Positions 17,714 through 34,730 of a stretch of 43,144 nucleotides of DNA are shown piece by piece; positions within the stretch are counted from its first letter, which is position 1; each line of letters starts with the position of its first letter. The stretch is from Desulfovibrionales bacterium. Its GTDB lineage: Bacteria > Desulfobacterota > Desulfovibrionia > Desulfovibrionales > Desulfovibrionaceae. The translations under genes were made by a program, and so were the position numbers. The stretch lies in assembly GCA_030156255.1 (NCBI GenBank), contig JASGMV010000034.1, positions 1-43,144 on the forward strand. Reading direction: 5' to 3'. The notes under the pieces are model-generated. The model had not been told where the DNA came from, ran no database searches, and was given only the letters and a program-made list of their open reading frames with translations.

Positions 17714-17789
17714 GTCACACGCTCCCGGTTGGTTGATGGATGGTTTGATAAGAACCTCACAACCTCTCCAACGATACCCGACTGTTTGA

Positions 17790-17804
17790 GCAAGGAGCGG
17801 ACCA
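17790..17804 (-). promoter_or_regulatory. Sigma-54 (-24/-12) promoter of adh
   Basis: The minus strand reads TGGTCCGCTCCTTGCT: TGG at the -24 position and TTGCT at -12, with exactly ten bases between GG (17803-17802) and GC (17791-17790). Transcription should start near 17778, leaving a leader of about 65 bases. Confidence 0.75.
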
Positions 17805-17958
17805 CTCTGAAAAAGTTTATTATACTGATGTGTTGCGTGAAGTTTTACGCCGCGTTGCGAGGTCGTAGGGGCGGAATGGACTGTCCGGCGGCTTCGCAGG
17901 CGGGGCGGGGCGCCCCCTTGGAGATTAAAGGCCAATGATCCCGCGGAAATCGGGTGGA

Positions 17959-18006
17959 GTGTCATTTTAACCCGGCTTGTTACGCGGATGGGTCAATTCG
18001 AGACAT
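17959..18006. promoter_or_regulatory. Long dyad, candidate enhancer (UAS) for the sigma-54 activator at adh
   Basis: Left arm GTGTCATTTTAACCC (17959-17973) and right arm GGGTCAATTCGAGACAT (17990-18006) face each other across 16 bases. The right arm matches 14 of 17 positions of the arm found upstream of the moeA-like gene (34916-34932). The near edge is 156 bp from the -24 GG of adh, a normal distance for an enhancer-binding protein. Confidence 0.6.
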
Positions 18007-18020
18007 GTTGGCGCGCTCCT

Positions 18021-18032
18021 GTCACATGTGAC
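18021..18032. promoter_or_regulatory. 12-bp palindrome upstream of adh
   Basis: GTCACATGTGAC is a perfect palindrome, 14 bases beyond the long dyad. It may be a second regulator site. The remainder of the 418-bp gap 17714-18131 shows no gene; it also contains a small hairpin right after the response-regulator stop. Confidence 0.35.
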
Positions 18033-18131
18033 GAATGTGTCCCGCCCGCCGCTTCCGGCGCTGGCGCAGTTTCAAGGCCGGGCCCCAAATCCGCCGCCCG
18101 TCCGTAACCGCCGAAGTCCGCCCTCCGGGCG

Positions 18132-20676: not shown

Positions 20677-21818
20677 CACCATGCTTCCTCGCAGATGGAG
20701 AGTAAATCCCTCCATTGTGCGTCTCTCGGGTTGGTCAAATGGCAGGCGTCCCGCGTGGCCATTCTGCAGATGCCCGCCAGGTTGGACTGGTCCGGAAGCA
20801 ATTGCCGCAGATGGGTGTTGACGCCCAGGTCGTTGAAGAGCTCTTCGAGCTTGTCGACGCCGGCTTGCGCCGCATTTTCGTCCGAACGGCTGGCGTCGCC
20901 CAGGATCAGACGTCCGATGACGCCCATCTTTCTTGCGCAGGCGTGCATGTTGAAGCGCATGACCGACGGCAGCAGCACCGGATGAACCATGCCGTGCATG
21001 ATGTCGTACATGCCGCCGAGGGAGTGCGCCAGGGCGTGCAGCGAACCCAGTCCGGCGTTGCTGAAGGCCATGCCGGCCGAAGTGCTGGCGATGGAAAGCC
21101 GCTCCAGGGCGTCGATGTTCCTGTCGGCCGCGGCGGGTTTGATGTTTTCGATAATGAGCTTGATGGCGTTGGACGAGTGGAGGTCGGTGAACGGGGAGGC
21201 CAGCTTGGAGACGTAGGACTCCACGGCGTGGGCCAGGGCGTCGATGGCCGAGGACAGGATCAGGCCGCGGCTCTTCGTCAGCAGGAGGTCCGGATCGATG
21301 ATGGAGATGTTCGGCACCAGCGACCTGCTGATGATGGACATCTTCACCTGCCGCTCCACGTCGGTGATGATGCAGTACTGGGTGGTGTCCGAGCCGCTGC
21401 CCGCCGTGCTGGGTATCAGGATCATGGGAGGCAGGGGGCGCATGATGCGGTTGGCGCCCTCGTAGTCCCGGATCCTGCCGCCGTTGCCCGCGATGGTCCC
21501 GACGCCCTTGGCCGCGTCCATGGAGCTGCCGCCGCCCAGGGCGATGATGACGTCGCAGCGTTCTCGCGCGTACACTTCCGCGCCTTCGTGCACCTGGTAG
21601 TCGCGGGGGTTGGGCCTCACGTTGTTGAAGTAGACGACCTCCAGGCCGTCGGACTCCAGGATGTCGATGACGCGCTCCACCCAACCTGCGGCTTCGAGCC
21701 CCTTGTCGCTGACAAGCAAAATCCGCCTGGCGCCGACGCGCCTGGCGCACTGCGCCAGGGACAAGATGGCGCCGTGCCCGAAAATGATGTCGGGAATGGC
21801 GAATTTGGTGATGAACAT
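20676..21818 (-). CDS. Second iron-containing alcohol dehydrogenase, coupled to the two-component system
   Basis: This 380-residue Fe-ADH family protein has ALGGGSSMDAAKGVG, PSTAGSGSDTTQYCII and the metal-ligand regions AIDALAHAVESYV, HALAHSLGGMYDIMHGMVHPVLLP. It is clearly a paralogue of the adh product but diverged across its length. It overlaps the sensor kinase gene by TGATG, so enzyme, kinase and regulator are made together. It could supply alcohol/aldehyde conversion, or report on it to the kinase; the second idea is speculative. The 143-bp leader upstream contains mutually exclusive hairpins. No sigma-54 consensus was found in front of it. Confidence 0.92.
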   Translation of the reverse strand: MFITKFAIPDIIFGHGAILSLAQCARRVGARRILLVSDKGLEAAGWVERVIDILESDGLEVVYFNNVRPNPRDYQVHEGAEVYARERCDVIIALGGGSSMDAAKGVGTIAGNGGRIRDYEGANRIMRPLPPMILIPSTAGSGSDTTQYCIITDVERQVKMSIISRSLVPNISIIDPDLLLTKSRGLILSSAIDALAHAVESYVSKLASPFTDLHSSNAIKLIIENIKPAAADRNIDALERLSIASTSAGMAFSNAGLGSLHALAHSLGGMYDIMHGMVHPVLLPSVMRFNMHACARKMGVIGRLILGDASRSDENAAQAGVDKLEELFNDLGVNTHLRQLLPDQSNLAGICRMATRDACHLTNPRDAQWRDLLSICEEAW

Positions 21819-21961: not shown

Positions 21962-23143
21962 TCAGTTTTCCCCCTGCGCATCGCATCCGGCCGCCTCCAG
22001 GGTCGAGCGGACCAGCCGCTCCAAAGCCCCTCCAAGCCGCTCTTCGATTCTTTCCAGCACCCTGCGGGCTCGGGTCAATCGCCCTCGAATGGCGTCGCAG
22101 GCTTCGAGATCGCCTGCATGCCGCTCAAGGACGCGGGCGTAGCGTTCTTCAAGCGTTACGGGCTCCGTTCCGGCCGTCAGCTTGTCCGCGATGAACACCA
22201 CTTCGGCCTCGGACACCGGGGCGCCTTCGTTCGGCGCCATGTCCTTGTGGCCGGCCACGGCCTGGGCGATGTCCGTGAACCCGAGCTCCCGCAGAAACTC
22301 GCCGCCGGCCTCCTCGTGGCGCCGCTGTCCCTTGGCCAGGTCGTGGACCTTCGCCGCGGCCTCGATGCGCTCCAAGTCCAACGGTGCGTCCGGCTGGGCG
22401 GCGTTGACCCCGCGGGCGACAGTCAGGGCGGCCAAGGCCGTCGCCTCGCCGTGCCGCCGGGTGCGCTCCGGCGTTCCGGCCAGGTCCATGATCGCCGCGC
22501 ACTCCCGCGCGTCCGGCGTTCCGAGGCGCTCCAGGCGGCGCAGAATTTCCCGGTAGGCCGGCTCCGTGTCCATGTCCGCCAGGATGTTGGCGTCGGCTAC
22601 GGCGACGTCCAGAACCTCGCCGGGCCGGGCCGACTCCAGGTCCTCCAGCAGGCCGCGGAGTCCTCGCGACCCGCCGCTGTCCAGGATGGACGGGGTCAGT
22701 TCGGCGGACAGCAGCGGCGGGTGGCCGCGGGTCGCCAAAAAACGCGGGTGCAGGACCCGTGCGTCGCTCTCGGTCCAGGCCCGCATCAGCCGGCGGACGG
22801 TCTGCATCCGCACCAGGGGAATGTCCGCCGGCAGAACGAAGAAGGCCGCGGCGTCTTTCCTGAGCGCCCGCGCGCCGGCCTGGATCGAGGAGAACATGCC
22901 CTGCGCGAAATTCGGATGGATCGCCGCCCGTGCGCCGGCGCTGGCGACCACGGGCGCCAGTACCTCGGCCTGGTGTCCGATCACGGCCACGACCTCCCGC
23001 GCGCCGGCTTCGAGCAGCATCCCGATCACGCGTTCGATCACAAGCCCTCCGCCCAACGGATACAGGGGCTTGAAGCCGTCCATGCGGCTGGATAGTCCCG
23101 CGGCCAGGACCACGGCGTCGAACGGGCCGGCGCTACGAACCAT
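21962..23143 (-). CDS. MobA-like nucleotidyltransferase fused to an HD domain (DVU_1551 type)
   Basis: The 393-residue protein joins two domains. Residues 1-200 are a MobA/MocA-type NTP transferase with AVVLAAGLSSRMDGFKPLYPLGG, VVAVIGHQAEVL and FFVLPADIPLVRMQTVRRL. Residues about 225-345 form an HD domain with RRHGEATALAAL, KVHDLAKGQRRHEEAGG and VAGHKDMAP. Xanthine-dehydrogenase-family enzymes such as Mop use molybdopterin cytosine dinucleotide, so the first domain is a good candidate for the CTP:molybdopterin cytidylyltransferase of this operon; the HD domain, usually a metal phosphohydrolase, has no obvious role in that step. Last gene of the run, overlapping xdhC by 11 bases. I recall this architecture from D. 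vulgaris DVU_1551; that match is from memory. Confidence 0.85.
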   Translation of the reverse strand: MVRSAGPFDAVVLAAGLSSRMDGFKPLYPLGGGLVIERVIGMLLEAGAREVVAVIGHQAEVLAPVVASAGARAAIHPNFAQGMFSSIQAGARALRKDAAAFFVLPADIPLVRMQTVRRLMRAWTESDARVLHPRFLATRGHPPLLSAELTPSILDSGGSRGLRGLLEDLESARPGEVLDVAVADANILADMDTEPAYREILRRLERLGTPDARECAAIMDLAGTPERTRRHGEATALAALTVARGVNAAQPDAPLDLERIEAAAKVHDLAKGQRRHEEAGGEFLRELGFTDIAQAVAGHKDMAPNEGAPVSEAEVVFIADKLTAGTEPVTLEERYARVLERHAGDLEACDAIRGRLTRARRVLERIEERLGGALERLVRSTLEAAGCDAQGEN

Positions 23144-24194
23144 GGCGCCTCCTCTCGGCCCGCTCCCGGATCAGTTCGCCCACGATGCTCACCGCGATTT
23201 CCTCCGGGGTTTCCGCGTCGAGGGCCAGCCCGATGGGGCAATGCACGCGGGCCAAGTCCTTCCGGGTGAAGCCCTCTTCCCGCAGGGCTTCGTAAATGGC
23301 GTCGCGCTTGCGGCGGCTGCCGATCATGCCCACGTAGCCGGCCTTTGACCGGAGCGCCTGGGCCAGAACCGTCTTGTCGTGCAAATGCCCGCGCGTGACG
23401 ATGATCAAGGAGCTGTCCTCGTTCACCTCCTGTCCTGCTAGGCAGTCCGTGAAGTCCCGCAGGACGCTGACGGCGTCGGCGTCCGGGAACCGCTCGACGC
23501 TTACGAACTCGGGCCGGTCGTCCATGACCACGGTCCGGAAGCCGACCATGGCCGCGAGTCTTGCGGTGGGGACGGCCACGTGCCCCGCGCCGATCAGGAA
23601 GGCGGCGTCCCGGACGGCGATGGGCTGCACGTTGTAGCGTTGCCCCTGGATTTCGGTCAGCCCCGGAAGTTTGGCCTCGGAGATGCGGCGCGCCGTCTGT
23701 TCGGGAAGCCCGGCAGGCGTTTCCCCCTGGATGACGGCCCAGCGTCGGACGTTCGAAACGGCGTCGCCTTGCTCCGCAGGGCCGAGCCCCGAGGCCAGGA
23801 CGACCTCGCGCCCCGACTTCACCGCCGCGTTGACGGACTCGAAGAATCGGCGGTTCTCTTCGGTGTCGTCGATGCGCTCCAGGAGCACGGCCATGTCGCC
23901 GCCGCAGATCATGCCGGCCTTGGCCGCCTGTTCGTTGCTGAGGCTGATGCGCAGAATTTTGGCGCCGTTCGGGCCGGGGGAGGAATGCCGACCGAGAAGC
24001 TCCACGGCCTCGCGGATGGCCATGGCCTCGGACAGGCCGCCGCCCACCGTGCCGGTGATGGCGCCGTCGGGTCGGACGGCCATGGCCGCGCCGGAGGACC
24101 GGGGCGTGGAGCCGGCGTGTTCGCAGACCGAAGCCAGGACCAACTTCCGGCCTTGCTGTAGCGTATCGCAGATCGCAGCAATCACGTCGTGCAT
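23133..24194 (-). CDS. xdhC: XdhC/CoxI-family molybdenum-enzyme maturation protein
   Basis: XdhC proteins bind molybdenum cofactor, protect its sulfurated form and insert it into xanthine-dehydrogenase-family enzymes. The 353-residue product has the N-terminal XdhC/CoxI segment (VCEHAGSTPRSSGAAMAVRPDG, GTVGGGLSEA), the Cys-containing MICGGDMAVLLE, and the C-terminal Rossmann half ending HCPIGLALDAETPEEIAVSIVGELI. It should serve the aldehyde oxidoreductase in the same operon. I chose ATG 24194 (MHDVIAAICD); it lies 13 bases inside the upstream ligase gene, so the two overlap. Confidence 0.93.
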   Translation of the reverse strand: MHDVIAAICDTLQQGRKLVLASVCEHAGSTPRSSGAAMAVRPDGAITGTVGGGLSEAMAIREAVELLGRHSSPGPNGAKILRISLSNEQAAKAGMICGGDMAVLLERIDDTEENRRFFESVNAAVKSGREVVLASGLGPAEQGDAVSNVRRWAVIQGETPAGLPEQTARRISEAKLPGLTEIQGQRYNVQPIAVRDAAFLIGAGHVAVPTARLAAMVGFRTVVMDDRPEFVSVERFPDADAVSVLRDFTDCLAGQEVNEDSSLIIVTRGHLHDKTVLAQALRSKAGYVGMIGSRRKRDAIYEALREEGFTRKDLARVHCPIGLALDAETPEEIAVSIVGELIRERAERRRHGS

Positions 24195-25504
24195 GAGGAG
24201 AACCGCCTGTCGTCGATGGTTCGTTTGCCGGCGCACAGCGGCGCTGGATCGTTGGTCAGCTGGATGTCGAGAACGATGCTCCATTCGGGCGACGCCGCGA
24301 GCCGGGACGCGATGCGGCGGCGTATTTCCCGGAGGTCGCCTTGTCCGGCCGATGCGATTTTGAGCGAGAGCCGTTCGCGCCCCGCATGGATGTCCAGGGC
24401 CGCGGAGTAATCAAACACTTCGGGAAGAGCGAACAACAGTTCGTCCAGGCGGGCCAGCTCCAGGCGCCGCCCGCTTTGCAGAACGGGCATGTTGTCGATT
24501 CTGCCCCGCACCTTGTCCAGCCTGCCCAGGACGCTTCCGCACGGGCACGACCCCGGCGCCAGCCGGCTCACGTCTCCTGTGCGGTAGCGGATCAAGGGCA
24601 TGGCCTCCCGTGAAAGGGTGGTCAAGACGATTTCGCCCCAAGCTCCTGCGGGCAGGGGCTTACCCGTTTCCGGGTCCACGATTTCCACCAGCAAATCCGG
24701 CTCGCGCAGGTGCGCGCCGCAGCGGAAGCCGCACTCCACGGCGCCGCCCAGTCCGCTCTCCACGGTTCCGTAGTGGTTGAAAATTCGGCAGGGCCAAAGC
24801 TTGCGGAGCCTGTTCGCGATGCTGTCCACGCAGTAGTCGGAGCAGAACAGGACGGCGATGTTCCTGCTTCGCCCGCGGATCGGCCCCAGTTTTTCGGCCA
24901 TGGCCAGGATGTGGACCGGGAAGCCCACGATGCAGTCCGGCTGAAGTTTGGCCATGGCTTCCGCGGCCTGCGTCGCGTCGGCGACGAGCCCGTGAACCAG
25001 GCTGCGGACGCCGGATCGCTTGAGCGCCCTGGACAGCAAGTCGCCCACGCTGTCCGGCGTTTCGCCCGGCAGCAGGATCAAGGCCGTATCGCCTGGAGCG
25101 GCGAGCTGGAGCATGCCGTACTGGAAAAAGTCGATGGTCGCCTCAAGGTCCGCCTCGCTGAAGAACAGGCGCTTGGGCGGTCCCGTGGCGCCGGAGCTGG
25201 CCTGCGTCACCACTCTGGCCGCCTGGTCCTGGGAGACGCAAAGCATGCGCAGGCCGTGGTCCCGGATGTCCTCCGGGGTCGTGAACGGCAGGTTGCGCAC
25301 GTCCTCCAGGCGCTGCACGGAGCGCATCGCGGCCTTTGTCAGCCGGTCCCGATAAAAGGGGCTGCGGCTTCGGGCCCTTTGCAGGAGGCGCTGCAGGGCG
25401 TCCAATCTCCAAGAGGCCAGGGCCTCCCGCGAGAAGGCGCCTGGGGCGGCGTCGATTTTTCGGGCGGCCCAGCGGTCCAGCATCGTTGGCGCGGCTTGCG
25501 TCAT
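24182..25504 (-). CDS. PaaK-like AMP-forming acyl-CoA ligase (DVU_1553 type)
   Basis: The 440-residue protein has the phenylacetate-CoA ligase layout: SSGATGPPK phosphate loop (103-111), NHYGTVES (243-250) for the adenylate, RYRTGDVSRL (307-316), then SCPCGSVLGRLDKVRGRIDN (from 319). These enzymes activate a carboxylate with ATP and pass it to CoA or another thiol. In this operon the substrate could be the acid made by the aldehyde oxidoreductase, or a group attached during cofactor maturation; sequence does not decide. The cysteines at 221, 225, 239, 258 and 262 are more than PaaK needs. ATG 25504 overlaps the radical SAM stop as ATGA. A DVU_1553 equivalent is recalled from D. vulgaris. Confidence 0.85.
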   Translation of the reverse strand: MTQAAPTMLDRWAARKIDAAPGAFSREALASWRLDALQRLLQRARSRSPFYRDRLTKAAMRSVQRLEDVRNLPFTTPEDIRDHGLRMLCVSQDQAARVVTQASSGATGPPKRLFFSEADLEATIDFFQYGMLQLAAPGDTALILLPGETPDSVGDLLSRALKRSGVRSLVHGLVADATQAAEAMAKLQPDCIVGFPVHILAMAEKLGPIRGRSRNIAVLFCSDYCVDSIANRLRKLWPCRIFNHYGTVESGLGGAVECGFRCGAHLREPDLLVEIVDPETGKPLPAGAWGEIVLTTLSREAMPLIRYRTGDVSRLAPGSCPCGSVLGRLDKVRGRIDNMPVLQSGRRLELARLDELLFALPEVFDYSAALDIHAGRERLSLKIASAGQGDLREIRRRIASRLAASPEWSIVLDIQLTNDPAPLCAGKRTIDDRRFSSCTT

Positions 25505-26898
25505 GGGCGCCTCCGGTAGAGGGGGCGCCCGTCGGCCGCGGTCAGGTTGTAGGCGCAGAAGGGAACCAGCCGGCCGTCCGGAGAGAGCACGTGGATGCAG
25601 CATTCCTTGAGCCTGGCCAAATCCAGGGTCCAGGCGTCCTGGAAGACCATGGCCGAGATGCTGAAACTCCAGGTCTGCGCCTGCTCCAGGAACATGGACA
25701 GGCTGTCCGACGGCTTTTCCGTCGCACAGGAGCAGGACGGCGCAGCCCACTGCCTCGCCGTGTAGCCGATGGACTTGCGGGCGCCTTCGGCCGCGGGATG
25801 CGGTTCGATCCGATTCGGGCCTCCGCAGCAGGAGCGTTTGGCCTCCCGGGCGGGCCGCAGGTCGCCGTTTTCGGTGCGCAGGAAGGCGCCGTGGAAGGAG
25901 CACAGCGCGTGTTCGCACCCCGGAGGGCTGAAGTCCTCGACCTTGACCATTCCGCCGGTTTGCCGCTCCAGGGCGGCCATGATCTCCGGCAGGGTGATGC
26001 GGTTTTCGTCCGCGGGCGGGGCCGGATAGCGGCCGAAGTAGCTTACGGGTTGGAAATGCACGCCGCGCAGGAGCGGCCCGGCCTTCAGGGCGAAGGACAG
26101 GATGTCGCCCAGCTCCTCGTCGTTGACGCCCGGGACCACGGTGGGAACCAGCACCACGCCCAGACCGGCCTCAAGACAGTTGTCCACGGCCCGGCGCTTG
26201 GCCGAGTTCAGAGGCCGGCCTCGCAGGGCGAGATGGGTCGCGTCCCGCACGCCGTCGAATTGGAGAAAGACCGAGGACAGTCCGGCGTTCTTGAGTTTGC
26301 GGGCGTAGTCCGCCTCGCGCGCCAGCCGAAGTCCGTTGGTGTTGAGCTGGATGAAGCCGAAGCATCGCTCCCGGCCCATGGCGATGATTTCCGGCAGGTC
26401 GTCGCGCATGGTGGGCTCGCCGCCCGAGAGTTGGACGTTGCACTCGCCGCCGTCTTCCCGGACGCGGTCGAACCAGCCGCGTATGGTTGCCGGGTCGGGG
26501 TCGGATCGTTCCGGCTCGCCGGAGGACGCGAAGCAGACCGGGCACCCCAGGTCGCAGCGGGAGGTGATCTCCAGCAGGGCCGTGCAGGTGTGCTGTTGGT
26601 GTTCGGGGCAAAGCCCGCAGTCGTATGGGCAGCCGTCCCGAACCTGCGTGCGGGGCCGCTCCGGGTAGGAGGGCGTTTTGGCGTTGGTCCAGTCCGCAAA
26701 GGAGGGCCTCCGTCCGCGCCAGACCACGGCCTCGAAGTCTCCATGCTCCGGGCACTGCTTGGCGAGGACCACGTCGTCTCCCCGGCGGATTTTGCGGGCC
26801 GGAATGCGCTTCAGGCAGACCGGGCAGACGCTTTCGGTCCCATGGCCCGAGCCGTGCCCCCGCTGCAGGGCGGAGAAGGGCTGCATGTTGGTCGTCAT
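25501..26898 (-). CDS. trsS: Radical SAM protein, TrsS-like (COG1964-type, Cys form)
   Basis: The 465-residue protein has the radical SAM ligands C115-C119-C122 (CDLGCPVC) and QLSGGEPTMRDDLPEI for SAM binding. The N-terminus has a zinc-ribbon-like pattern (CPVCLKRIPA, then CPEHGDFE), and further cysteines occur at 90, 94 and 97 and near the C-terminus (CEHALC, SCCGG, CSC, ECC, PFCAYN). This layout resembles the group that includes the methanogen pterin methylase MJ0619 and tetraether lipid synthase. I recall a family named radical SAM (seleno)protein TrsS beside this gene set; here no in-frame TGA is present, so it is the cysteine version. The reaction is unknown. ATG 26898 overlaps the preceding stop as ATGA. 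Confidence 0.8.
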   Translation of the reverse strand: MTTNMQPFSALQRGHGSGHGTESVCPVCLKRIPARKIRRGDDVVLAKQCPEHGDFEAVVWRGRRPSFADWTNAKTPSYPERPRTQVRDGCPYDCGLCPEHQQHTCTALLEITSRCDLGCPVCFASSGEPERSDPDPATIRGWFDRVREDGGECNVQLSGGEPTMRDDLPEIIAMGRERCFGFIQLNTNGLRLAREADYARKLKNAGLSSVFLQFDGVRDATHLALRGRPLNSAKRRAVDNCLEAGLGVVLVPTVVPGVNDEELGDILSFALKAGPLLRGVHFQPVSYFGRYPAPPADENRITLPEIMAALERQTGGMVKVEDFSPPGCEHALCSFHGAFLRTENGDLRPAREAKRSCCGGPNRIEPHPAAEGARKSIGYTARQWAAPSCSCATEKPSDSLSMFLEQAQTWSFSISAMVFQDAWTLDLARLKECCIHVLSPDGRLVPFCAYNLTAADGRPLYRRRP

Positions 26899-27359
26899 TG
26901 TTCTTCCTTGGGCGACGACGGGTCCAATCCGTTTTCGACCAGTATCTCCAGGCATTTGCCCCAGGTTGCTGCGACCACGCCCGGACAGCGTTCCGGATTG
27001 GGCGAGCCGCATTCCTTGTCCCCGAGGATGTCCAGGCACCGCGTCCCCCCGTACTGTCCGCCTATTTCCGACTGGAACCATTCGATGATCTCGGAGCGCA
27101 TGAGCGGAAAGCGCTCGTGGGCCTCCTCCGTGTCGTCGCCCTTGCCAGCGTACAACCCCAGTACGCAGACCGCGGCGGTCAGCGCGCCGCAAGGGCCGGA
27201 GCAATCGCCCAGCCCGTGGCAAGCGCCGCTCATGGCGCGGACCAGCGCCGGGTTTTCCCGCCCTTGCGCCTCCAAAGCGAAGAGCATGATGATTTGGCTG
27301 CAGCAGTATCCGGAGGCTGCGTGTTGCATGATTCGCATCGTGGCGTCATCCATGGCCAT
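26895..27359 (-). CDS. C-GCAxxG-C-C family protein (DVU_1555 type)
   Basis: The 154-residue protein carries the cysteine and glycine pattern of the C_GCAxxG_C_C family: GYCCSQIIMLFALE, then GACHGLGDCSGPCGALTAAVCVLGLYAGK, and later TRCLDILGDKECG with ERCPGVV. Such proteins are thought to bind a metal or Fe-S centre and often stand beside redox and molybdenum or selenium enzymes, but no member has a firm function known to me. It overlaps both neighbours (methyltransferase upstream, radical SAM downstream), a sign of a fixed stoichiometric unit. ATG 27353, two codons in, is an alternative start. Confidence 0.85.
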   Translation of the reverse strand: MAMDDATMRIMQHAASGYCCSQIIMLFALEAQGRENPALVRAMSGACHGLGDCSGPCGALTAAVCVLGLYAGKGDDTEEAHERFPLMRSEIIEWFQSEIGGQYGGTRCLDILGDKECGSPNPERCPGVVAATWGKCLEILVENGLDPSSPKEEQ

Positions 27360-28110
27360 GGCGTTCTCCCTTGCGGGCCAGGAACACTCCGTAGCCCGGT
27401 TTCAGTCGTTCGCCGGCCGCGCAGGCCTTGGCCGCCCGGGCCGGAGGAAGCAGGGTTTCCCAGTAGGCCTCCAGCGAGCCGAAGGTGAAGACGAGCTTGG
27501 CGGCCAACCTCGTGAGCAGTTGCGTGTGGTCTTCGAAAGACAGAACTTCGAAACCGCGTCGGGAGAGCAGGGATTCGACGCCCGGACGGTCCATGGCGTA
27601 GTCCAGGCAGCACGTCAGCGGGCCGGACGGCTGGTTTCGGTCTTCCGCGCCGCGCCCTTCCGGAGAGCGAACGTAGATGTCGCTCAGGACCAGAAAACCT
27701 CCGGGCCGCAACACCCGGGCGATTTCCCGCAGGGCGTCGTCGGCGCAGCCCAGCAAGGAGAGGACGCATTCGCACAGGACGGCGTCCATGCTTCGGCTCA
27801 GGAAGGGCGTCCGCCCGGCGTCCGCCTGGACGAGGGCGAGGCCGGAGCCTTCCTTGCGCAGATCGCCGAGTTTGCCGAGGTCGATGTCCAGTCCGAAGAC
27901 GTTCAAATCGAATTCGCTTTGCAGCATGTTGATGCTTGCGCCGTAGCCGCATCCCATATCCAGGAGCTTGGCGCCGCGCTGGAGCCCTAGGCGGCGGATG
28001 GCGGCGGCGGTCAGTTCGATCGTCCCGGGTCGAAGCGGACCGCCGGTGAGGCTGCGCAGGGCGGCGCGTTTGCCGGGCGCCGGGGGGATGTTGGTCAACG
28101 TTGCGTGCAT
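27346..28110 (-). CDS. SAM-dependent methyltransferase (DVU_1556 type)
   Basis: A class I methyltransferase of 254 residues: motif I LLDMGCGYGASI, acidic strand FGLDIDLGKL, QADAGRTPF, and LREIARVLRPGGFLVLSDIYVRS as in UbiE/arsenite methyltransferase-type enzymes. Substrate is not deducible. It stands between a small Cys4 protein (14 bases upstream) and the C-GCAxxG-C-C gene, which it overlaps, in a set that also contains a radical SAM protein; two methyl- or SAM-using enzymes in one operon point to modification of a cofactor or a small molecule. ATG 28110 gives a compact protein; longer frames enter the upstream gene. Confidence 0.85.
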   Translation of the reverse strand: MHATLTNIPPAPGKRAALRSLTGGPLRPGTIELTAAAIRRLGLQRGAKLLDMGCGYGASINMLQSEFDLNVFGLDIDLGKLGDLRKEGSGLALVQADAGRTPFLSRSMDAVLCECVLSLLGCADDALREIARVLRPGGFLVLSDIYVRSPEGRGAEDRNQPSGPLTCCLDYAMDRPGVESLLSRRGFEVLSFEDHTQLLTRLAAKLVFTFGSLEAYWETLLPPARAAKACAAGERLKPGYGVFLARKGERHGHG

Positions 28111-28124
28111 CGAACATTTCCGCG

Positions 28125-28334
28125 CTATTTGTCTTCCAAGAGTTGCTCCACCTCGAACATCCTGCCCCGGGCGAGGTCTTCGGGGATCAGGACCAGACCG
28201 CATTTCTCGCAAGCGAGAAGCTCCATGGTGAAGGTGTTGCCCAGGTATTCGACGTTCGTAATGCGGGGCGTGAGTTTTTCGCCGCATTTGCCGCAGCGCC
28301 AGTTGGTTTCCGGCAGAAAGGAGAGGTCGCTCAT
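28125..28334 (-). CDS. Small Cys4 zinc-ribbon/rubredoxin-like protein (DVU_1557 type)
   Basis: Only 69 residues: CGKCGEKL near residue 14 and CEKCGLVLIP near residue 43 form two CxxCG knuckles, the ligand set of a zinc ribbon or a rubredoxin-like iron site. The second knuckle followed by a hydrophobic and a proline is rubredoxin-like, so an electron-carrier role is possible, but zinc cannot be excluded. It overlaps the large Fe-S/flavin gene as ATGA, which suggests that the two products work together. Confidence 0.8.
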   Translation of the reverse strand: MSDLSFLPETNWRCGKCGEKLTPRITNVEYLGNTFTMELLACEKCGLVLIPEDLARGRMFEVEQLLEDK

Positions 28335-30628
28335 TGCCGGTCTCCTTCAAGGGCCATGCGGTGGCTGTAGGCGTTGAACACCCGGTAGCCGTCTTCCTCC
28401 GGGGCGTATTCCACCCAGTAGGTCACCCGCACGGGGCGATGGTAGGCCAGGTATCGTCCGCTGGTCGGGTCCTGAAGGCGCAGGCCCGTCTCCTGGGCGT
28501 GCAGGATGACCCGTTGCAGGTCCTCCTTCAGGATGCGGCGATCCTCCATGCGGCTTGCGACGTCGGCGTCCATGGCGATGTTGACGGCTTCGTGCGGCTC
28601 CATCAAGCCCGCCTCCTCGCCCCATAGGGCTTTGAGCATGTTCCGGCGAAGCCGGCTGCGGTTTTCGCGGCGTTCGGAGAATCCCGTCGACGACCTGGCC
28701 GCGGGGTTTTCTCCGGCGGCTTCGGGGAAGAGAAGGTCCAGTAGATGCCAGACGCGTTTGCCGGTCGAGGCGAAGACGTCCCGGCACATGGCGCAGTATG
28801 CCAGATAGTCTCCGGAATGCTGCTGCGCGCGGCGTTCTGCGACCTCTCGGGCGAGGCCGGGATTGGCGCAGGACATGAGCCCGCCGTAGCCGCAGCAGGA
28901 CGTCAGCTCGTTGTTGTACGGCAGTTCTTGGACCTCCACGCCGCACTTGCCGGCCAGGGACCTGGCCGCGGCCCGCAGCTTCGGGTGCTCGCGGGTGGTG
29001 CAGGGGTCGTGTACGGCCAGGGCCGCGGGAACGCGTCCGGGCGCCGGGGAGGGGGTGGCGCCGGTCCGGTCCATGATCTCCCAAAGCGACGTCGTGTTGA
29101 CGTCCGGCGCATGGCGGCGCAAAGTATCATAACAGGTCGAACAGGCTGTGACCAGTGTGGGCGCGCCGAGCGGCCGGATCATCTCCCGCAGGGCGTCCAA
29201 CGTCCGGCCGAAAAGCTCGCGCTCGCCGGCCCACAGGGCCGGGGCGCCGCAGCACCCCAGAATCAGGCCTACGGAGTCGTCCATGGCCTCGCGCAGCCAG
29301 TCGTAGACGCGCTCCACGTGGTTCGGAGCGGACCCGGCGAGTTGGCAGCCCGGAAAAAAGGCGTAGGCGCATTGCTCTGCGCCCGGCGCGTTTTGGGCCA
29401 GGGCGAAGTGCGGCCCCATGTTGAAACGCAGATCCTCCAGGGCGAAATCATGGGCCGAAGGCGGCATTTTGCCGCGCCGGACCATGGACTCCCGCACGCT
29501 CAAGCACAGATTCGCCATGGAAAAGTCGTTGGGGCAGACCACCTCGCACTGTCCGCACAGCGCGCACGAGTCGATCATCTTGTTGGATTTGTGATGTCCC
29601 TTGACGATGGACTCGTTGTTGTAGATTTGCCGGGCGTAGAGCTTGGGGTATCCCTTGTAGTTCTCCAGATAGACGCAGGCCTTGACGCACTCCATGCACT
29701 CGCATCGCAGGCAGCGCCCGGCTTCGGCCCGGCCCTCTTCTCCGGACAAACCCGCCCCGGGGTCCGCGGGGATGATCCGCGGGGCGGGCGCAACGCCCTC
29801 GATGTTCGTGTACAGCCGGGTCTCTTGCGGCCCCTCCGTCTCGCGTTGGGCGGTGAGGGACACTTTTTGCAGAAATCTGTCCATGCCGCCCGAGGCGCGT
29901 CGGCCGTCAGCGGCCTGGCGGATGGGCGAATATCCTCCCTCCGGGTCGGGTCCTCCGCCGGCGAAAAGACCCGAGCGCCGCAATACCAGGGTTGCTGCAT
30001 CCGGAGTTTCGCCTTCGGCCAAAACCCTCGCCGCGGGTTCGTCCAGGTCGAGGAACACCGCCAGGCCGTTCTCCAGGAGCCGATCCAAGGCCGCCTGGTC
30101 CGGAATCTCGGCTTCGCGAAGGTCCACCTTGATCCGCTTGAGCAGGGCCGCGGCCTGATCGAATTCCTCTTTCGGAACGGCCAGGCCGGTCAGGCCGGCG
30201 CCAAAGGTTTCTCCGGGATAGCGCAGAGAGACGCGAAACCCCTTGCGGGCCAGGTCCAGCGCTACGGTGAGGCCGGCCAGGCCGGCGCCGAAAACGGCGG
30301 CTTCGCCTTTTTTGCCGGGCAGGACCAGCGGCCGGCTTTGGGGGGTGCTGTTTTCGATGCAGCATCGCTCCAGGGCGCCGACGGCCACGGCCTCGTCCAC
30401 TTCGAGGCGCTTGCAGACGTTTTCGCACGGGTGGTCGCAGATGCGGCCCAGGATGCCCGGAAAAGGCATGGTCCGCTCCAGAATCTTTCGCGCCGCGTCC
30501 CATTTGCCGGCCGCGGCCTGGGCCGTGAAGGCGCGCACGTCCACATGGAGGGGGCAGGCTGCGGAGCACCACGGCGGTTGCTCCTGAATGCAGCGATACT
30601 CAAGCTCTCGAAGGGATTGCTGATCCAT
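28331..30628 (-). CDS. Multidomain Fe-S/flavin oxidoreductase with CCG domains (DVU_1558 type)
   Basis: This 765-residue fusion starts with a GltD-like Fe-S region (CSAACPLHVDVRAF, CDHPCENVCKR), followed by a pyridine-nucleotide-disulfide oxidoreductase-like segment (AAVFGAGLAGLTVALDLARKG), then ferredoxin motifs (CLRCECMECVKAC and CALCGQCEVVCPNDF), and then HdrD/GlpC-like CCG domains (FFPGCQLAGSAPNHVE...GCCGAPA with CSTCYD; HDPCTTREHPK...SCCGYGGLMSCANP with CAMCRD). A C-terminal 130 residues end with a separate small domain. The FAD half looks shortened against GltD. It may carry electrons from the aldehyde oxidoreductase to a thiol/disulfide or quinone couple; that is inferred from neighbours and domain order. 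Confidence 0.85.
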   Translation of the reverse strand: MDQQSLRELEYRCIQEQPPWCSAACPLHVDVRAFTAQAAAGKWDAARKILERTMPFPGILGRICDHPCENVCKRLEVDEAVAVGALERCCIENSTPQSRPLVLPGKKGEAAVFGAGLAGLTVALDLARKGFRVSLRYPGETFGAGLTGLAVPKEEFDQAAALLKRIKVDLREAEIPDQAALDRLLENGLAVFLDLDEPAARVLAEGETPDAATLVLRRSGLFAGGGPDPEGGYSPIRQAADGRRASGGMDRFLQKVSLTAQRETEGPQETRLYTNIEGVAPAPRIIPADPGAGLSGEEGRAEAGRCLRCECMECVKACVYLENYKGYPKLYARQIYNNESIVKGHHKSNKMIDSCALCGQCEVVCPNDFSMANLCLSVRESMVRRGKMPPSAHDFALEDLRFNMGPHFALAQNAPGAEQCAYAFFPGCQLAGSAPNHVERVYDWLREAMDDSVGLILGCCGAPALWAGERELFGRTLDALREMIRPLGAPTLVTACSTCYDTLRRHAPDVNTTSLWEIMDRTGATPSPAPGRVPAALAVHDPCTTREHPKLRAAARSLAGKCGVEVQELPYNNELTSCCGYGGLMSCANPGLAREVAERRAQQHSGDYLAYCAMCRDVFASTGKRVWHLLDLLFPEAAGENPAARSSTGFSERRENRSRLRRNMLKALWGEEAGLMEPHEAVNIAMDADVASRMEDRRILKEDLQRVILHAQETGLRLQDPTSGRYLAYHRPVRVTYWVEYAPEEDGYRVFNAYSHRMALEGDRQ

Positions 30629-30703
30629 GCCGGCCGCCTTTCGGAAGGTTTGATTGATCGTGGAATCCTTCTTGGATGGTATGCATTCCTCGTTTGATGA
30701 ACA

Positions 30704-30732
30704 AGGCGGGCCCAGGCTCGCCGGGCCCGCCT
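30704..30732 (-). terminator. Hairpin between mop and the Fe-S/flavin gene
   Basis: Arms 30704-30713 (AGGCGGGCCC) and 30723-30732 pair perfectly around a nine-base loop, 31 bases after the mop stop. On the minus strand it is followed by TTGTTC, a weak U-tract. It probably lowers read-through from mop into the eight downstream genes or stabilises the mop mRNA. Confidence 0.55.
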
Positions 30733-30762
30733 GTCATGAGCGCGGTATGGGTTGGGACGAAT

Positions 30763-33480
30763 TTAGCCCTTCATCGCCGCCAACACCTTTTCCGGATAAG
30801 CCGGCAGGTGCGTGATGCGCGCGCCGCAGGCGTTATAGATGGCGTTGATGACGGCGGCGTGCGGGGCGGTCAGGGGGAGTTCGCCCACGCCGCCCACGCC
30901 GAAGGCGCCTTCGGGCCGCGGCGTCTCGACGTAGATGATCTCCATGTCGTCAGGAATGTCCTTGATGTAGGGAACGCCCGCTCCCTTCATGGTGGAGTGC
31001 TTTTTGATGTCCTCGTAGTCTTCGGTGAGGGCGAGGCCGATACCCTGGGCCATGCCGCCGTAGAGCTGGCCGTCCACCACCAGGCGGTTGTTGACCTTGC
31101 CCACGTCCGCGGAGATGACCATTTTTTCCACCGTGGTCTTGCCGGTTTTGGCGTCCACCGCCACGACGCTGAGGAAGACTCCGTACATGTAGACCACGAA
31201 AGGCCGGCCCTGAGCGTTTTCGTCGCACTCGGCGCCCGGAGCCGTCCACTTGCCGACGTACTTGGTCGGGAGGCCCGCGTCGGCCATTTCCTTGTAGGTG
31301 CGGTATCCGCCGCCGTCCTTCTTCAGGCCGTCGAGGAGCAGGTCGCACGCGGCCTTGATGGCGCGCCCCGTGACCACCTGGGAGCGGCTGCCGCCGGCGG
31401 GCCCGCTGTTGGGGGCCTTGGACATGTCGTTCATCACCAGCCGGATCTTCTCGGGGGGCAGCCCCAAGGGACGCAGGGCCTCGTGGGCGATGCCCATGGT
31501 TCCGGCGTCGGCGCCCTGGCCGTGGTCCTCCCAACAGTTGTAGATGGTGACGGAGCCGTCTTCGTTGAGTTCGGCCCAGGCCTCGGAGCCGTCGGGACCG
31601 TCCAGGCCGCAGCCGTAGACGCCGAGGGAGACGCCCACGCCGCGCTTGACCTCGGCCGTGGAGTTGGCGGCGGCGTACTTTTTGGCTTCCTCGTACTTGG
31701 GCCGGATGGCGTCGATGAGATCAGGAAGGCTGAAGACCTCGGGAGTTTGGCCCGTGGGAGTCGTGGCGCCGGGGCGGTAGACGTTCTTGTAGCGCAGCTC
31801 CAGGGGATCGACGCCGAGCTTTTCGGCCAGTTCGTCCATGAGGACTTCCGAAGGGAACTGGCTTTCGGGAGCGCCGTAGCCGCGGAAGGCCGCGCCCCAG
31901 CAGTGGTTGGTGCAGACCGTGCGGCCGAGGCCCCGGATGTTGGGGATGTCGTAGCCTGCGGCGATGAACTGGGCGCCGCGCAGGGTCAGCAGGTCGCCGA
32001 ACTCGGAGTAGGGGCCGTGGTCCACGGTCCAGTCGCTTTCCATGGCCAGCAGCTTGCCGTCCTTGTCCGCGGCGTAGCGCACGGTGGTGAAAAACGGGGA
32101 GCGTTTGCCGGTGTAGGCCTGCTGCTGCTGGTAGTCGTAGTTCAGGAAAACGGGCCGCTCGGTGGCCATGGCCGCCGCCCCGACCAGCGCTTCCATGGTG
32201 GGGCTGAACTTGTAGCCGAAGGTGCCGCCCGTGGGGTTTTGGACCAGGAAGAGCTTGTCGGCGTCCACGCCCAGTCCCGGGGCGATCATGGCCGCGTGCA
32301 GGTGCAGGCCGATGGACTTGGAGTGGACGAAAAGGTTGCCGTCGTCGTCCAGGTAGGCGAATCCCACGTCCGGCTCGATGGGCAGGTGCGGTTGGCGTTG
32401 GACGTAGAAATCGTCCTCCACCACCACGGCGGCCTTTTCGAAGATGGGTGCGGTTTCTTCGCCCTTGGCGATGTTTTGTTCGAAGTAGACGTTGGGCGTG
32501 CCGGGGTGGATTTCGATGGCGTCTTCGGCCATGGCCGCGGGCGCGCTCATGTAGGCCGGCAGTTCCTCCAGGTCCACTTTGACCAGCTTGGCGGCCGTCT
32601 TGGCGTGATGCATGGTGTCCGCGCAGACGATGGCGATGGCGTCGCCGTATTGGTAGACCTTGTCGTCGCACAGAATGGGGCGGTCCCATCCATCGCCCTT
32701 GTTGGTGGGGAAGGTGATGAGGCCGGTGATGCGGTTTTTGCCCTTGACGTCCTTGTGGGTCACGACCTTGACCACGCCGGGCGCCTTTTCGGCTTCGGAG
32801 GTGTCGATGGACCTGATGTTGGCGTGGGAGACCTCGGCCTGAACCAGAGCCAGACACAAGGTGTCCTCCGGCATCTTAATGCCTGCGTCCGCGCCGTAGT
32901 CCAGTGCTCCGGTGACCTTGGACACGGCGCTGGGGCGGGGGTACTTGGTCCCGAAGATGCGGCCGTCGGCCGGCGTCTTGAACTCCAGCTCTTCGGCCTT
33001 CATCTCCCCGCGCATGACGGCCGCGGCGTCCATGACGGCGTCCACCAGCGGTTTGTAGCCCGTGCAGCGGCAAACGTTGTTGTGCTTCTGGTACCAGTCG
33101 CGCACGTCTTCTCGGGAGGGCTTGGGGTTCTCCGTCAGCAAAGCCTTGGCCGACACGATGAAGCCCGGCGTACAGAAGCCGCACTGGGCCGCGCCGTAGG
33201 CGATCCAGGCCATCTGGATCGGGTCGAGCTTGCCGGCGACGCCCAGACCTTCGATGGTCAGAATCTCGGCGCCCTCGGGGACGCGTTTCATCTTGGTGAT
33301 GCAGGAACGAATCAGTTTGCCGTTCATGATGACGTTACAGGCGCCGCACTGGCCCTGGCCGCAACCGATCTTGGTTCCCGTCAATTTGAGTTGCTCGCGC
33401 AGCACGTCGGCCAGGGTCGCATCCTGGTCGGACACGACGTTTTTGAAAACGCCGTTGACGTACAGAGTTTTGCCGATCAT
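30763..33480 (-). CDS. mop: Molybdenum aldehyde oxidoreductase (Mop, xanthine dehydrogenase family)
   Basis: Mop oxidises aldehydes to acids at a molybdopterin-cytosine-dinucleotide site with two [2Fe-2S] clusters. The 905-residue length is almost the same as D. gigas Mop. Cluster ligands are C40, C45, C48, C60 (GCGQGQCGAC) and C100, C103, C137, C139 (QCGFCTPGF, VCRCTGY), the same numbers as I know for the D. gigas enzyme. The Mo domain shows TGGTFGYKFSP, AFRGYGAPESQF and the catalytic-glutamate motif GVGELPLTAP near the end. There is no FAD domain, so electrons leave through the Fe-S clusters. AAGGAGG precedes ATG 33480. It follows the MoeA-like gene by 80 bases and shares its sigma-54 promoter. 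Confidence 0.97.
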   Translation of the reverse strand: MIGKTLYVNGVFKNVVSDQDATLADVLREQLKLTGTKIGCGQGQCGACNVIMNGKLIRSCITKMKRVPEGAEILTIEGLGVAGKLDPIQMAWIAYGAAQCGFCTPGFIVSAKALLTENPKPSREDVRDWYQKHNNVCRCTGYKPLVDAVMDAAAVMRGEMKAEELEFKTPADGRIFGTKYPRPSAVSKVTGALDYGADAGIKMPEDTLCLALVQAEVSHANIRSIDTSEAEKAPGVVKVVTHKDVKGKNRITGLITFPTNKGDGWDRPILCDDKVYQYGDAIAIVCADTMHHAKTAAKLVKVDLEELPAYMSAPAAMAEDAIEIHPGTPNVYFEQNIAKGEETAPIFEKAAVVVEDDFYVQRQPHLPIEPDVGFAYLDDDGNLFVHSKSIGLHLHAAMIAPGLGVDADKLFLVQNPTGGTFGYKFSPTMEALVGAAAMATERPVFLNYDYQQQQAYTGKRSPFFTTVRYAADKDGKLLAMESDWTVDHGPYSEFGDLLTLRGAQFIAAGYDIPNIRGLGRTVCTNHCWGAAFRGYGAPESQFPSEVLMDELAEKLGVDPLELRYKNVYRPGATTPTGQTPEVFSLPDLIDAIRPKYEEAKKYAAANSTAEVKRGVGVSLGVYGCGLDGPDGSEAWAELNEDGSVTIYNCWEDHGQGADAGTMGIAHEALRPLGLPPEKIRLVMNDMSKAPNSGPAGGSRSQVVTGRAIKAACDLLLDGLKKDGGGYRTYKEMADAGLPTKYVGKWTAPGAECDENAQGRPFVVYMYGVFLSVVAVDAKTGKTTVEKMVISADVGKVNNRLVVDGQLYGGMAQGIGLALTEDYEDIKKHSTMKGAGVPYIKDIPDDMEIIYVETPRPEGAFGVGGVGELPLTAPHAAVINAIYNACGARITHLPAYPEKVLAAMKG

Positions 33481-33560
33481 TCCAGTCCTCCTTGCGAAAG
33501 GCGGGTTTGCCGCCAGGGTTGTGGAACATGCGCCGTCCCCAGACTCTTGCTTCGGGCTCT

Positions 33561-34589
33561 TCACGCCCCTTTGCCGAAGGCGCAGGCCGGCCAGCGGCAG
33601 ACTTTGCACCCGAGACAAAAACCGCCGTGGCCAAGGTTGGCGATCTCACGGCGGGTTACCCGTTCTCCCGCCAGCAGGCGGGGAACAACCAGATCGAAGA
33701 TGCTGGCCTTGTGGTACATGACGCACCCCGGCAGACCCAGGATCGGCGCGTCGCCGGCGTAGGCCAGCATGAACATGGCCCCGGGAAAGACCGGCGCTCC
33801 GTACGCCTCCACCGCGGCCCCCGCAGCCCGGATGGAGGCCGGCGTCTGGTCGTCGGGGTCCACGGACATGCCGCCGGTGCAGACCACCATGTCGGCGCCC
33901 TGGTCCAGAAAACCGCGAATGGCCGACACGGTCAGCTCCCGGTCGTCGGAAGTCATGACCTTGCCCATTACCCGCGATCCCAGCTCCGCGAATTTGCGCT
34001 CCACCACGGGACCGAAGGCGTCTTGGATGCGCCCGTGGTAGATTTCGCTGCCCGTGACGACCACCCCGATTTCGCAGGTTGCGAAAGGTTTGACCTCCAG
34101 AATGGGGCCGGTCTCGGCGCAAACGCTTTCAACCTCGCGGATTCGCGCCTCCTCCACGGCCAGCGGGATGATCCGCGCTCCGGCCGCGGCCTGGCCCTGC
34201 TCCACGGGCTGGTCGCCGTGCAGGCTGGCCAGGGCGATCCCTTCCAGCGAGTTGATCCGCAATAGCGATTGAGCGTTCACTTTAAGCAAGCCGCGGTGTG
34301 AAGCCAGCATATTGATCCGGCCCTCGCTGATTTCCGAGAAGGACAGGCCCGGGCCGGCTGCGGCGTTTGCGATGCGCTCCGCCGCCTCGTTTTCATGCAC
34401 CCACCCTCCATCCAGATCGAGGACGTAAATGTGCTCCTTGCCGATTTGCAGCAGTAACGGGATGTCCTGCTTCCGGATGATGTGTCCTTTCCTGAAGGCC
34501 GGCCCTTTGCTCTCGCCCGGGACAATGCGGGTGAGGTCGTGGCAGAGCACAGCGCCGACGGATTCGTTTACCGGAATCACTTTCATCAT
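33561..34589 (-). CDS. MoeA/MogA-type molybdopterin-binding protein with a C-terminal Cys motif
   Basis: The 342-residue protein has a MoCF_biosynth domain (VVVTGSEIYHGRIQDAFGPVV, DMVVCTGGMSVDPDDQTP, FPGAMFMLAY, LGLPGCVMYHKASIFDLVVPRLL), the fold that binds molybdopterin and inserts molybdate. The N-terminal 110 residues (MKVIPVNESVGAVLCHDLTRI) resemble MoeA-like shortened forms. Unusual is the tail FCLGCKVCRWPACAFGKG, with four cysteines (CxxCxxC plus one), able to bind metal or Fe-S. It is the first gene of the operon and probably supplies Mop-specific cofactor. ATG 34589 and ATG 34586 are adjacent candidates. Confidence 0.88.
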   Translation of the reverse strand: MMKVIPVNESVGAVLCHDLTRIVPGESKGPAFRKGHIIRKQDIPLLLQIGKEHIYVLDLDGGWVHENEAAERIANAAAGPGLSFSEISEGRINMLASHRGLLKVNAQSLLRINSLEGIALASLHGDQPVEQGQAAAGARIIPLAVEEARIREVESVCAETGPILEVKPFATCEIGVVVTGSEIYHGRIQDAFGPVVERKFAELGSRVMGKVMTSDDRELTVSAIRGFLDQGADMVVCTGGMSVDPDDQTPASIRAAGAAVEAYGAPVFPGAMFMLAYAGDAPILGLPGCVMYHKASIFDLVVPRLLAGERVTRREIANLGHGGFCLGCKVCRWPACAFGKGA

Positions 34590-34714: not shown

Positions 34715-34730
34715 GCAAGGATCAAGCCAA
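34715..34730 (-). promoter_or_regulatory. Sigma-54 (-24/-12) promoter of the moeA-like/mop operon
   Basis: The minus strand reads TTGGCTTGATCCTTGC: TTGGC at -24 and TTGC at -12, with ten bases between GG (34728-34727) and GC (34716-34715). The predicted leader is about 114 bases long and includes the terminator at 34623-34652. Confidence 0.8.

Follow-up and report, generated by a model that had tools for sequence, protein, structure and literature searches.

Two described enzymes bear on the system presented here. One is the aldehyde oxidoreductase (Mop) of Desulfovibrio gigas, which gave the first crystal structure of the xanthine-oxidase family; in the passages cited, its 1.28-Å structure holds molybdopterin cytosine dinucleotide (MCD) with well-defined pterin rings, and its electron partner is still called putative (PMC10223205). 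For the enzyme purified from cells grown with lactate and sulfate, a pyranopterin cytidine dinucleotide and an equatorial oxo ligand are described (PMC3877041). The other is the tetraether lipid synthase Tes (MJ0619), a radical S-adenosylmethionine (SAM) enzyme; the part of the literature that we draw on describes a rubredoxin site (C9X2C12X20C33X2H36), an N-terminal cluster bound by C73, C77, C80, and a His, the cluster of the radical SAM site, a C-terminal one with the labile Met439, a mechanism in which a bond forms between a substrate carbon and a cluster sulfur, and Tyr459, which is said to be strictly conserved across 1,000 archaeal homologues (PMC9433317). Relatives of both enzymes are encoded in a minus-strand run of ten genes (21962-34589) in the window, by which we mean the whole 43,144-nucleotide stretch of DNA analysed, from a contig (C50) of a 3.84-Mb genome that is 99% complete. 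The run begins with a MoeA-like gene, followed by mop and then by eight more genes. We give a probability of about 0.38 to the reading that six of these eight, here called the TrsS module after its radical SAM enzyme, make and recycle a small acyl-derived redox compound that Mop needs and that is not part of Mop.

The gene set is already catalogued. For Mop, and likewise for the product of every one of the eight genes that follow, there is one NCBIfam model whose curated cut-off is exceeded (NF045645, NF045646, and NF045663-NF045669). Five of the eight families carry DVU tags (DVU_1551, 1553, 1555, 1556, and 1557), and NF045646 is named "radical SAM (seleno)protein TrsS"; the initial annotation, made from the sequence alone, was thus right in its link to D. 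vulgaris DVU_1551-DVU_1558. It had also called the set conserved and without an assigned function, which is borne out by the recurrence described below and by a literature search that listed no study on the function of DVU1551-1558 or TrsS, although Haft & Tolstoy 2025, credited with TrsS in a citation and a table row of a 2026 review, may treat this neighbourhood. Single mentions of DVU1558 or DVU1559 were listed for three papers, and NF045646 led to one. The string "DVU15" is absent from the main text of a paper on the D. vulgaris sigma-54 regulome (PMC4641369), and the paper on the D. gigas genome (PMC4287179) does not use the term "radical SAM" in its main text.

Mop itself (30763-33480, minus strand like all ten genes; 905 residues) matches NF045668 over its full length, residues 4-904, at 1694.6 bits (cut-off 1100), and the closest solved chains are the aldehyde oxidoreductases 1DGJ and 1SIJ/1VLB. 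The MoeA-like molybdopterin-binding protein (33561-34589; 342 residues; PF00994, 1.6e-21) scores 52 bits against TIGR00177, under the cut-off of 85, and ends in a Cys-rich C-terminus whose GHGGxCxxCxxC tail is kept across 23 aligned rows. After mop come an Fe-S/flavin fusion (28331-30628; NF045663, 1020 bits, cut-off 530; PF14691, PF13534, PF02754); the 69-residue Cys4 protein (28125-28334; DVU_1557 family, DUF7479; NF045645, 94 bits, cut-off 60; PF24292); a SAM-dependent methyltransferase of 254 residues (27346-28110; DVU_1556 family; NF045667, 210 bits, cut-off 155); a C-GCAxxG-C-C (GCA) protein of 154 residues (26895-27359; DVU_1555 family; NF045669, 182.6 bits, cut-off 103; PF09719); TrsS, a Tes-like radical SAM enzyme of 465 residues (25501-26898; NF045646, 684.4 bits, cut-off 490); a PaaK-like adenylate-forming ligase of 440 residues (24182-25504; DVU_1553 family; NF045666, 444 bits, cut-off 300); an XdhC-family aldehyde oxidoreductase maturation factor of 353 residues (23133-24194; NF045664, 412 bits, cut-off 350; PF13478, PF02625); and a MobA/MocA-like nucleoside triphosphate (NTP) transferase fused to an HD domain (MobA-HD; 21962-23143; 393 residues; DVU_1551 family; NF045665, 394 bits, cut-off 315; PF12804, PF01966). 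Neighbours among the eight genes overlap at six of seven junctions, by 4, 14, 4, 4, 13, and 11 nucleotides, the exception being a 14-nucleotide gap between the Cys4 and methyltransferase genes. Gene calls and profile searches agree with the ten-gene layout, the mostly overlapping genes, and each of the families that had been proposed from the sequence.

TrsS and mop co-occur very strongly, far beyond chance. Both were searched for over the same genomes in three samples: 296 from the phylum, 199 from the family (E <= 1e-40 for the D. gigas Mop fragment and E <= 1e-90 for TrsS), and 67 from the Acetobacterium order. Genomes with both, TrsS only, mop only, and neither numbered 26, 8, 2, and 260 in the phylum sample (34 with TrsS over the cut-off and 28 with mop), 124, 4, 11, and 60 in the family, and 18, 3, 2, and 44 in the order. 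The corresponding Fisher p values are 4.5e-28, 2.4e-34, and 2.4e-11, all made too small by shared ancestry. Of the two mop-only genomes of the phylum, G294 carries fragments of TrsS next to mop (L112), and G209 (94% complete), like G488, has mop but nothing over the thresholds for TrsS. In the family, three of the 11 mop-only genomes were checked (G371, G387, and G398), and the absence of TrsS was rejected for all three, TrsS being found beside mop in each; six of the other eight (G312, G321, G343, G352, G409, G420, G463, and G471) are less than 90% complete. TrsS without mop was scored in eight phylum genomes (G201, G092, G115, G070, G096, G109, G132, and G271), with a mop fragment beside the module in G092, and in four family genomes, again with such a fragment in G445. 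Within the Acetobacterium order, the TrsS-only G504 has sub-cut-off mop fragments beside the module, and the mop-only G502 has TrsS just under the cut-off beside mop. Extra mop genes with Fe-ADH-like (iron-containing alcohol dehydrogenase) genes near them and the module not on the stretch were seen in L120, L121, and L128; the genome of the first two (G406) has TrsS and a third mop elsewhere, and that of L128 is G209. Separately, the spacing between the GCA and ligase genes in L123, L124, and L125 suggests a longer TrsS gene, with no TrsS row there at E <= 1e-90. Given its conservation and a co-occurrence with mop well above chance, it is very probable that Mop depends on the module, and this dependence would explain the rarity of mop without it.

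Among 109 stretches, mostly of 10-20 kb, scanned with bit-score thresholds of our own, 48 (window included) hold TrsS and a mop-type gene, and this recurrence rules out a chance grouping of the genes. The Fe-S protein is matched on all 48, the ligase, methyltransferase, and GCA on 46 each, and Cys4 on 44; on the same stretches, MobA-HD is present on 27, XdhC on 25, and MoeA on 16. TrsS stands without mop on 16 stretches, some of which are short contigs or have mop elsewhere in the genome (L142, L147, L148, and L073); XdhC, MobA-HD, or MoeA is still present on the first three. Seven stretches (L087, L088, L090, L092, L096, L102, and L130, the last from G036 and with a split TrsS) belong to genomes without mop over the cut-off. 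None of these seven carries XdhC, MobA-HD, or MoeA, and all seven share TrsS, the methyltransferase, Cys4, and a gene for the C-terminal domain of the Fe-S protein, which is a separate small gene in every case. From this pattern of gene content, the operon looks like two parts, a set of maturation genes (MoeA-like, XdhC, and MobA-HD) and a separable six-gene TrsS module. The initial annotation had taken the eight genes as one set; they do share an operon, but XdhC and MobA-HD behave as mop-specific and the other six can be separated from them.

A role for the core beyond Mop follows from genomes in which no enzyme of this kind was found. Twelve genomes were searched for PF02738, the molybdenum domain of the xanthine dehydrogenase (XDH) family, at E <= 1e-10; G115, G070, G096, G036, G296, and G546 gave no match, and G109, G132, G271, G209, G488, and G512 did. 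The first four, 90-100% complete, hold most of a related module, with one or more of the six genes missing from each stretch. Since the shared core is present in these four genomes with no PF02738 match, at least four genomes use it for something other than an XDH-family enzyme, and for the same reason its role is unlikely to be confined to the maturation of Mop. The initial annotation had raised the question of whether the accessory genes are widespread without an XDH-family enzyme: such genomes exist, but they are few (three of the 34 genomes with TrsS over the cut-off among the 296, plus G036). As related sets thus occur in bacteria without an aldehyde-oxidising molybdenum enzyme, it is more likely that the gene set makes a small helper molecule than that it makes Mop's own metal cofactor.

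The TrsS tree separates the two situations. Sixty-two rows labelled as mop-linked lie on one side of a branch whose support in the Shimodaira-Hasegawa-like approximate likelihood ratio test (SH-aLRT) is 85, not a strong value, and six mop-less rows and two "double" rows lie together on another branch (SH-aLRT 98). One change of label suffices, compared to a mean of 13.0 after shuffling, and none of 500 shuffles reached it. The labels were assigned by hand, with "mop" assumed for L034, L073, L105, L142, L143, L147, L148, and the short L122 and L131-L136; mop is found elsewhere in the genomes of L073, L142, L147, L148, L122, and L131-L136, the label of L034 rests on the assumption, and no mop match was listed for G201 (L105) or for G546 (L143, also without PF02738). 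The tree leaves out L035 and L117, and the TrsS threshold was missed by L112, L130, and L149.

Some loci are of other types. G296, with a pair of TrsS genes, a ligase, and no mop, represents the "double" type. Two TrsS-like genes with a PaaK-like ligase, DUF5714, and a 2-hydroxyglutaryl-CoA dehydratase-like (HGD-D) gene are found at L126:6641-12349 and L145:586-7199, one host belonging to the window's family and the other to the Acetobacterium order. In L097 and L099, mop-type paralogues and DUF5714 accompany the TrsS module; L097 encodes, in addition, a DsrC-like protein and has a gene resembling class-V aminotransferases. At L073:6156-8111, an aldehyde ferredoxin oxidoreductase (PF02730, PF01314) adjoins the module, with mop on another contig. 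A Pfam search gave no match for a membrane protein of L096 or a 94-residue protein of L143.

How might the genes work together? Judging by their families, the MoeA-like protein, MobA/MocA-HD, and XdhC would supply and insert the MCD cofactor. The PaaK-like enzyme would activate a carboxylic acid to an acyl-AMP or acyl-coenzyme A (acyl-CoA). It does not reach the PaaK equivalog cut-off; it is a predicted adenylate-forming ligase by its core motifs (S104-G105, E249, and R308-T309-D311, kept in 70 rows) and its A10 lysine (K427 in the window, and K in 55 of 55 filled rows). The Cys-rich methyltransferase, in which C115 is conserved as an invariant-type residue and C54, C168, and C230 are present in 83-87% of 69 rows, would methylate the compound or an attached thiol; arsenite methyltransferase is among its weaker relatives.

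On the activated acid, TrsS would build a C-C or C-S bond through radical chemistry of the Tes type, for which the C-terminal [4Fe-4S] cluster would hold the substrate. Its best solved relative is Tes (7TOL/7TOM, 1.5e-90). An AlphaFold model built with 37 sequences has a predicted local distance difference test (pLDDT) score of 90.4, and a fold search with it recovered the same Tes structures at template-modelling (TM) scores of 0.79-0.81 over about 500 columns, the others among the 50 matches listed scoring at most 0.43 on the query. The radical SAM motif CX3CX2C (C115, C119, and C122) is kept in 71 of 71 rows and stands among further metal-site motifs (C25-x2-C28-x20-C49-x2-H52; C90, C94, C97, and H100; and C333, C433, and C448), and the conserved M417 lies at the place of the labile Met439 of Tes. 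The window's TrsS has no in-frame stop and no selenocysteine, with Cys at all invariant positions; selenocysteine is a feature of some members only.

The redox cycle of the compound would be run by the heterodisulfide-reductase-like Fe-S/flavin protein together with Cys4 and GCA. The Fe-S/flavin protein consists of Fer4_20 and flavin adenine dinucleotide (FAD)-binding parts, a 4Fe-4S dicluster, two CCG domains, and a C-terminal domain of 94 residues, and the dicluster and both CCG cysteine motifs are kept in 60 aligned rows. By profile comparison with hhalign, Cys4 resembles small zinc-finger proteins, presumably of the "YgiT-type", that are encoded beside DUF4258 (probability 88-95%; controls <=4.3%), and the C-terminal domain of the Fe-S protein (28334-28615, minus strand) resembles, though much less strongly, DUF4258 itself (22%; controls <=1.3%), with 6 of 41 members matching DUF4258 weakly. 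Genes for the zinc finger and DUF4258 are side by side in 8 of the 11 small loci fetched, and a fold search of the C-terminal domain gave only RelE/HigB-like matches (E >= 0.037). Cys4 and this domain may be a docking pair, exapted from a toxin-antitoxin-like pair. A more specific version, which we consider quite unlikely, would make the module's product an undescribed low-molecular-weight thiol/disulfide (or similar) cofactor that is made by the steps above, is recycled by the HdrB-like Fe-S/flavin protein, and acts as Mop's physiological electron acceptor, with relatives of the module providing comparable compounds for corrinoid and ATP-driven reductase systems in bacteria lacking Mop.

Several points weigh against a small redox compound. 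The co-occurrence counts include shared ancestry and operon linkage, and no gene for the product or a precursor was seen. The mop-less forms of the module are incomplete: the full Fe-S protein is missing from G096 and G036, the ligase from the G070 stretch, and GCA from G115 and G070. At the level of the seven mop-less stretches, the Fe-S protein matches its model only from about position 281-308 onward in L087, L088, L096, and L102, so that the flavin part is missing; it is long in L090, replaced by a distant CCG protein in L092, and absent from L130. L088 has no ligase, and L092 and L130 alone show GCA. The mop-less TrsS enzymes, being on a separate branch, may run a related but different reaction. 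In 15 of the 70 ligase rows the A10 column is empty, and the ligases of L083 and L089 stop before the C-terminal domain that carries this lysine and, on their sequences, may not adenylate in the usual way. The argument from D. gigas, given below, rests on published descriptions, and part of the data (Fe-ADHs, TRAP transporters, and HGD-D genes) fits a pathway that contains Mop.

Such a pathway is the alternative that survives best, although we regard it as doubtful. An Fe-ADH would oxidise an alcohol and Mop the aldehyde, and the PaaK-like enzyme would ligate the acid; TrsS, the methyltransferase, and the Fe-S protein would act on the acyl-CoA, and mop-less versions would import the acid directly. 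In its favour, the region downstream of the operon on the minus strand encodes an Fe-ADH (20676-21818; NF041833, 417.9 bits, under the cut-off of 550), an AtoS/ZraS-like sensor histidine kinase (19474-20715, start codon uncertain; NF008468, 3.9e-66, under the cut-off), an NtrC/AtoC-like sigma-54 response regulator (18132-19481; NF008469, 5.4e-120, under the cut-off), and a second Fe-ADH (16532-17965, start codon uncertain; NF007363, 494.6 bits, under the cut-off of 581). The two dehydrogenases and the AtoS/AtoC-like pair (16532-21818) suggest an alcohol- or aldehyde-responsive sigma-54 control. The Fe-ADH-like genes near the module-free mop genes of L120, L121, and L128 point the same way, as do the genes for TRAP transporters and for RACo, a corrinoid activator, that adjoin the mop-less module in L090, L096, and L102 (three genera of one family), L090 also having a B12-binding protein there. 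So do the HGD-D genes beside the mop-less module of L088 (with BadF) and in the double-TrsS loci L126 and L145. A pathway including Mop would account for the dehydrogenases and transporters, yet it leaves unexplained why mop-only genomes are so rare. Many would be expected if Mop were a general aldehyde oxidase with a single role in a pathway, and only 2 of the 28 phylum genomes with mop lack TrsS over the cut-off, one of them having TrsS fragments beside mop. Mop is also made on lactate and sulfate, according to the passages cited, in both D. gigas (PMC3877041) and D. vulgaris (PMC10920352). Finally, Fe-ADH was found on only 1 of the 48 TrsS-mop stretches, the window itself, although with stretches of this length more distant copies would be missed.

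A possible sigma-54 promoter, TGGCTTGATCCTTGC (34715-34729, minus strand), lies upstream of the MoeA-like gene. The motif has two matches in the window against 0.78 expected, and 22 of 100 shuffles had as many, which is weak alone. TGGC-N7-TTGC is found upstream of MoeA in three Acetobacterium-order loci as well, in a set where 4 of 23 upstream pieces have such a motif, 7 of the 23 being only about 150 nucleotides long and some coming from the same genome.

It is improbable that TrsS, the methyltransferase, and the ligase instead alter the molybdopterin cofactor or the Mop peptide. Such a role would fit the very strong co-occurrence with mop and the operon shared with XdhC and MobA-HD. It would also fit the zinc-ribbon domain of TrsS, called HMPTM in Pfam, a name that we take to refer to a pterin methyltransferase. 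D. gigas is informative here: G310, with a 100% match to the 206-residue D. gigas Mop fragment, has the locus MoeA-mop-FeS-Cys4-methyltransferase-GCA-TrsS-PaaK-XdhC, with MobA-HD not seen on the stretch. Because D. gigas bears the module, yet its native Mop is described in the passages cited with plain pyranopterin cytosine dinucleotide, at 1.28 Å in one case (PMC3877041, PMC10223205), a lasting modification of the cofactor or peptide is unlikely, as far as published descriptions go. It is disfavoured also because most of the related module occurs in genomes with no PF02738 match. The initial annotation had listed both a modification of Mop or its cofactor and a small redox compound; the first is left unsupported, and the second is the one we favour. 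Least probable is reductive repair, in which the Fe-S/flavin protein, Cys4, and GCA would keep the dithiolene of Mop in its reduced state, using a thiol made by the other enzymes. In its favour, both CCG domains of the Fe-S protein are intact, TfrB is one of the weak relatives of that protein, and inactive D. gigas Mop is described as differing from active enzyme in oxidation of the dithiolene sulfur S7 and as reactivated by dithionite plus sulfide. Against it, its simplest form needs no ligase, radical SAM enzyme, or methyltransferase, it leaves the modules of genomes without an XDH-family enzyme unexplained, and Mop is said in the same source to be purified in air with its activity unaffected (PMC3877041).

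If the TrsS module does make a small redox compound, it would represent a new cofactor pathway and a non-lipid reaction for the Tes branch of radical SAM enzymes. Splitting a mop-specific maturation part from a portable module also turns the question of why there are so many genes into testable ones.

Among described systems, the gene content of the locus is like that of the NCBIfam DVU_1551-1557/TrsS set, in the window as in other loci, and the window adds the MoeA-like first gene, for which there is no such family of its own, the Fe-ADHs, and the two-component system. As in the maturation of molybdenum hydroxylases, the operon has XdhC, a MocA-like NTP transferase, and a MoeA-like protein, but the standard cut-offs are missed (135.4 of 161.6 bits for XdhC TIGR02964; 121.8 of 186.45 bits for MocA TIGR03310); XdhC and MobA-HD fit families made for the mop operon instead, and the NTP transferase carries a fused HD domain. 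With the selenium-dependent molybdenum hydroxylase system it shares an XDH-family enzyme with dedicated accessory genes. That system was rejected as an identity, Mop scoring 476.9 bits against the TIGR03311 cut-off of 830.45, and none of the ten operon proteins matches SelD or YqeB, which we assume to be its marker genes, among the matches listed.

The Fe-S/flavin protein shares with HdrBC, TfrB, and GlpC a dicluster and two CCG domains with complete cysteine motifs, but is fused to the Fer4_20/FAD part and the C-terminal 94-residue domain. It is far under the cut-offs of TfrB (57 of 385 bits) and GlpC (35 of 278 bits), and Hdr models match only its L096 relative, below the cut-off. TrsS shares with Tes (GDGT-MAS) the fold over nearly the whole chain, the four metal-site motifs, and a Met at the Met439 position. 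It differs in being 37 residues shorter between the two matched regions and in having Val437 in place of Tyr459 (by alignment, with a construct offset of 20 applied by hand); a true Tes was rejected on this missing Tyr and on the NF045702 score of 358.8 bits against a cut-off of 450. TrsS probably has Tes-like chemistry, on a substrate that is probably not Tes-like.

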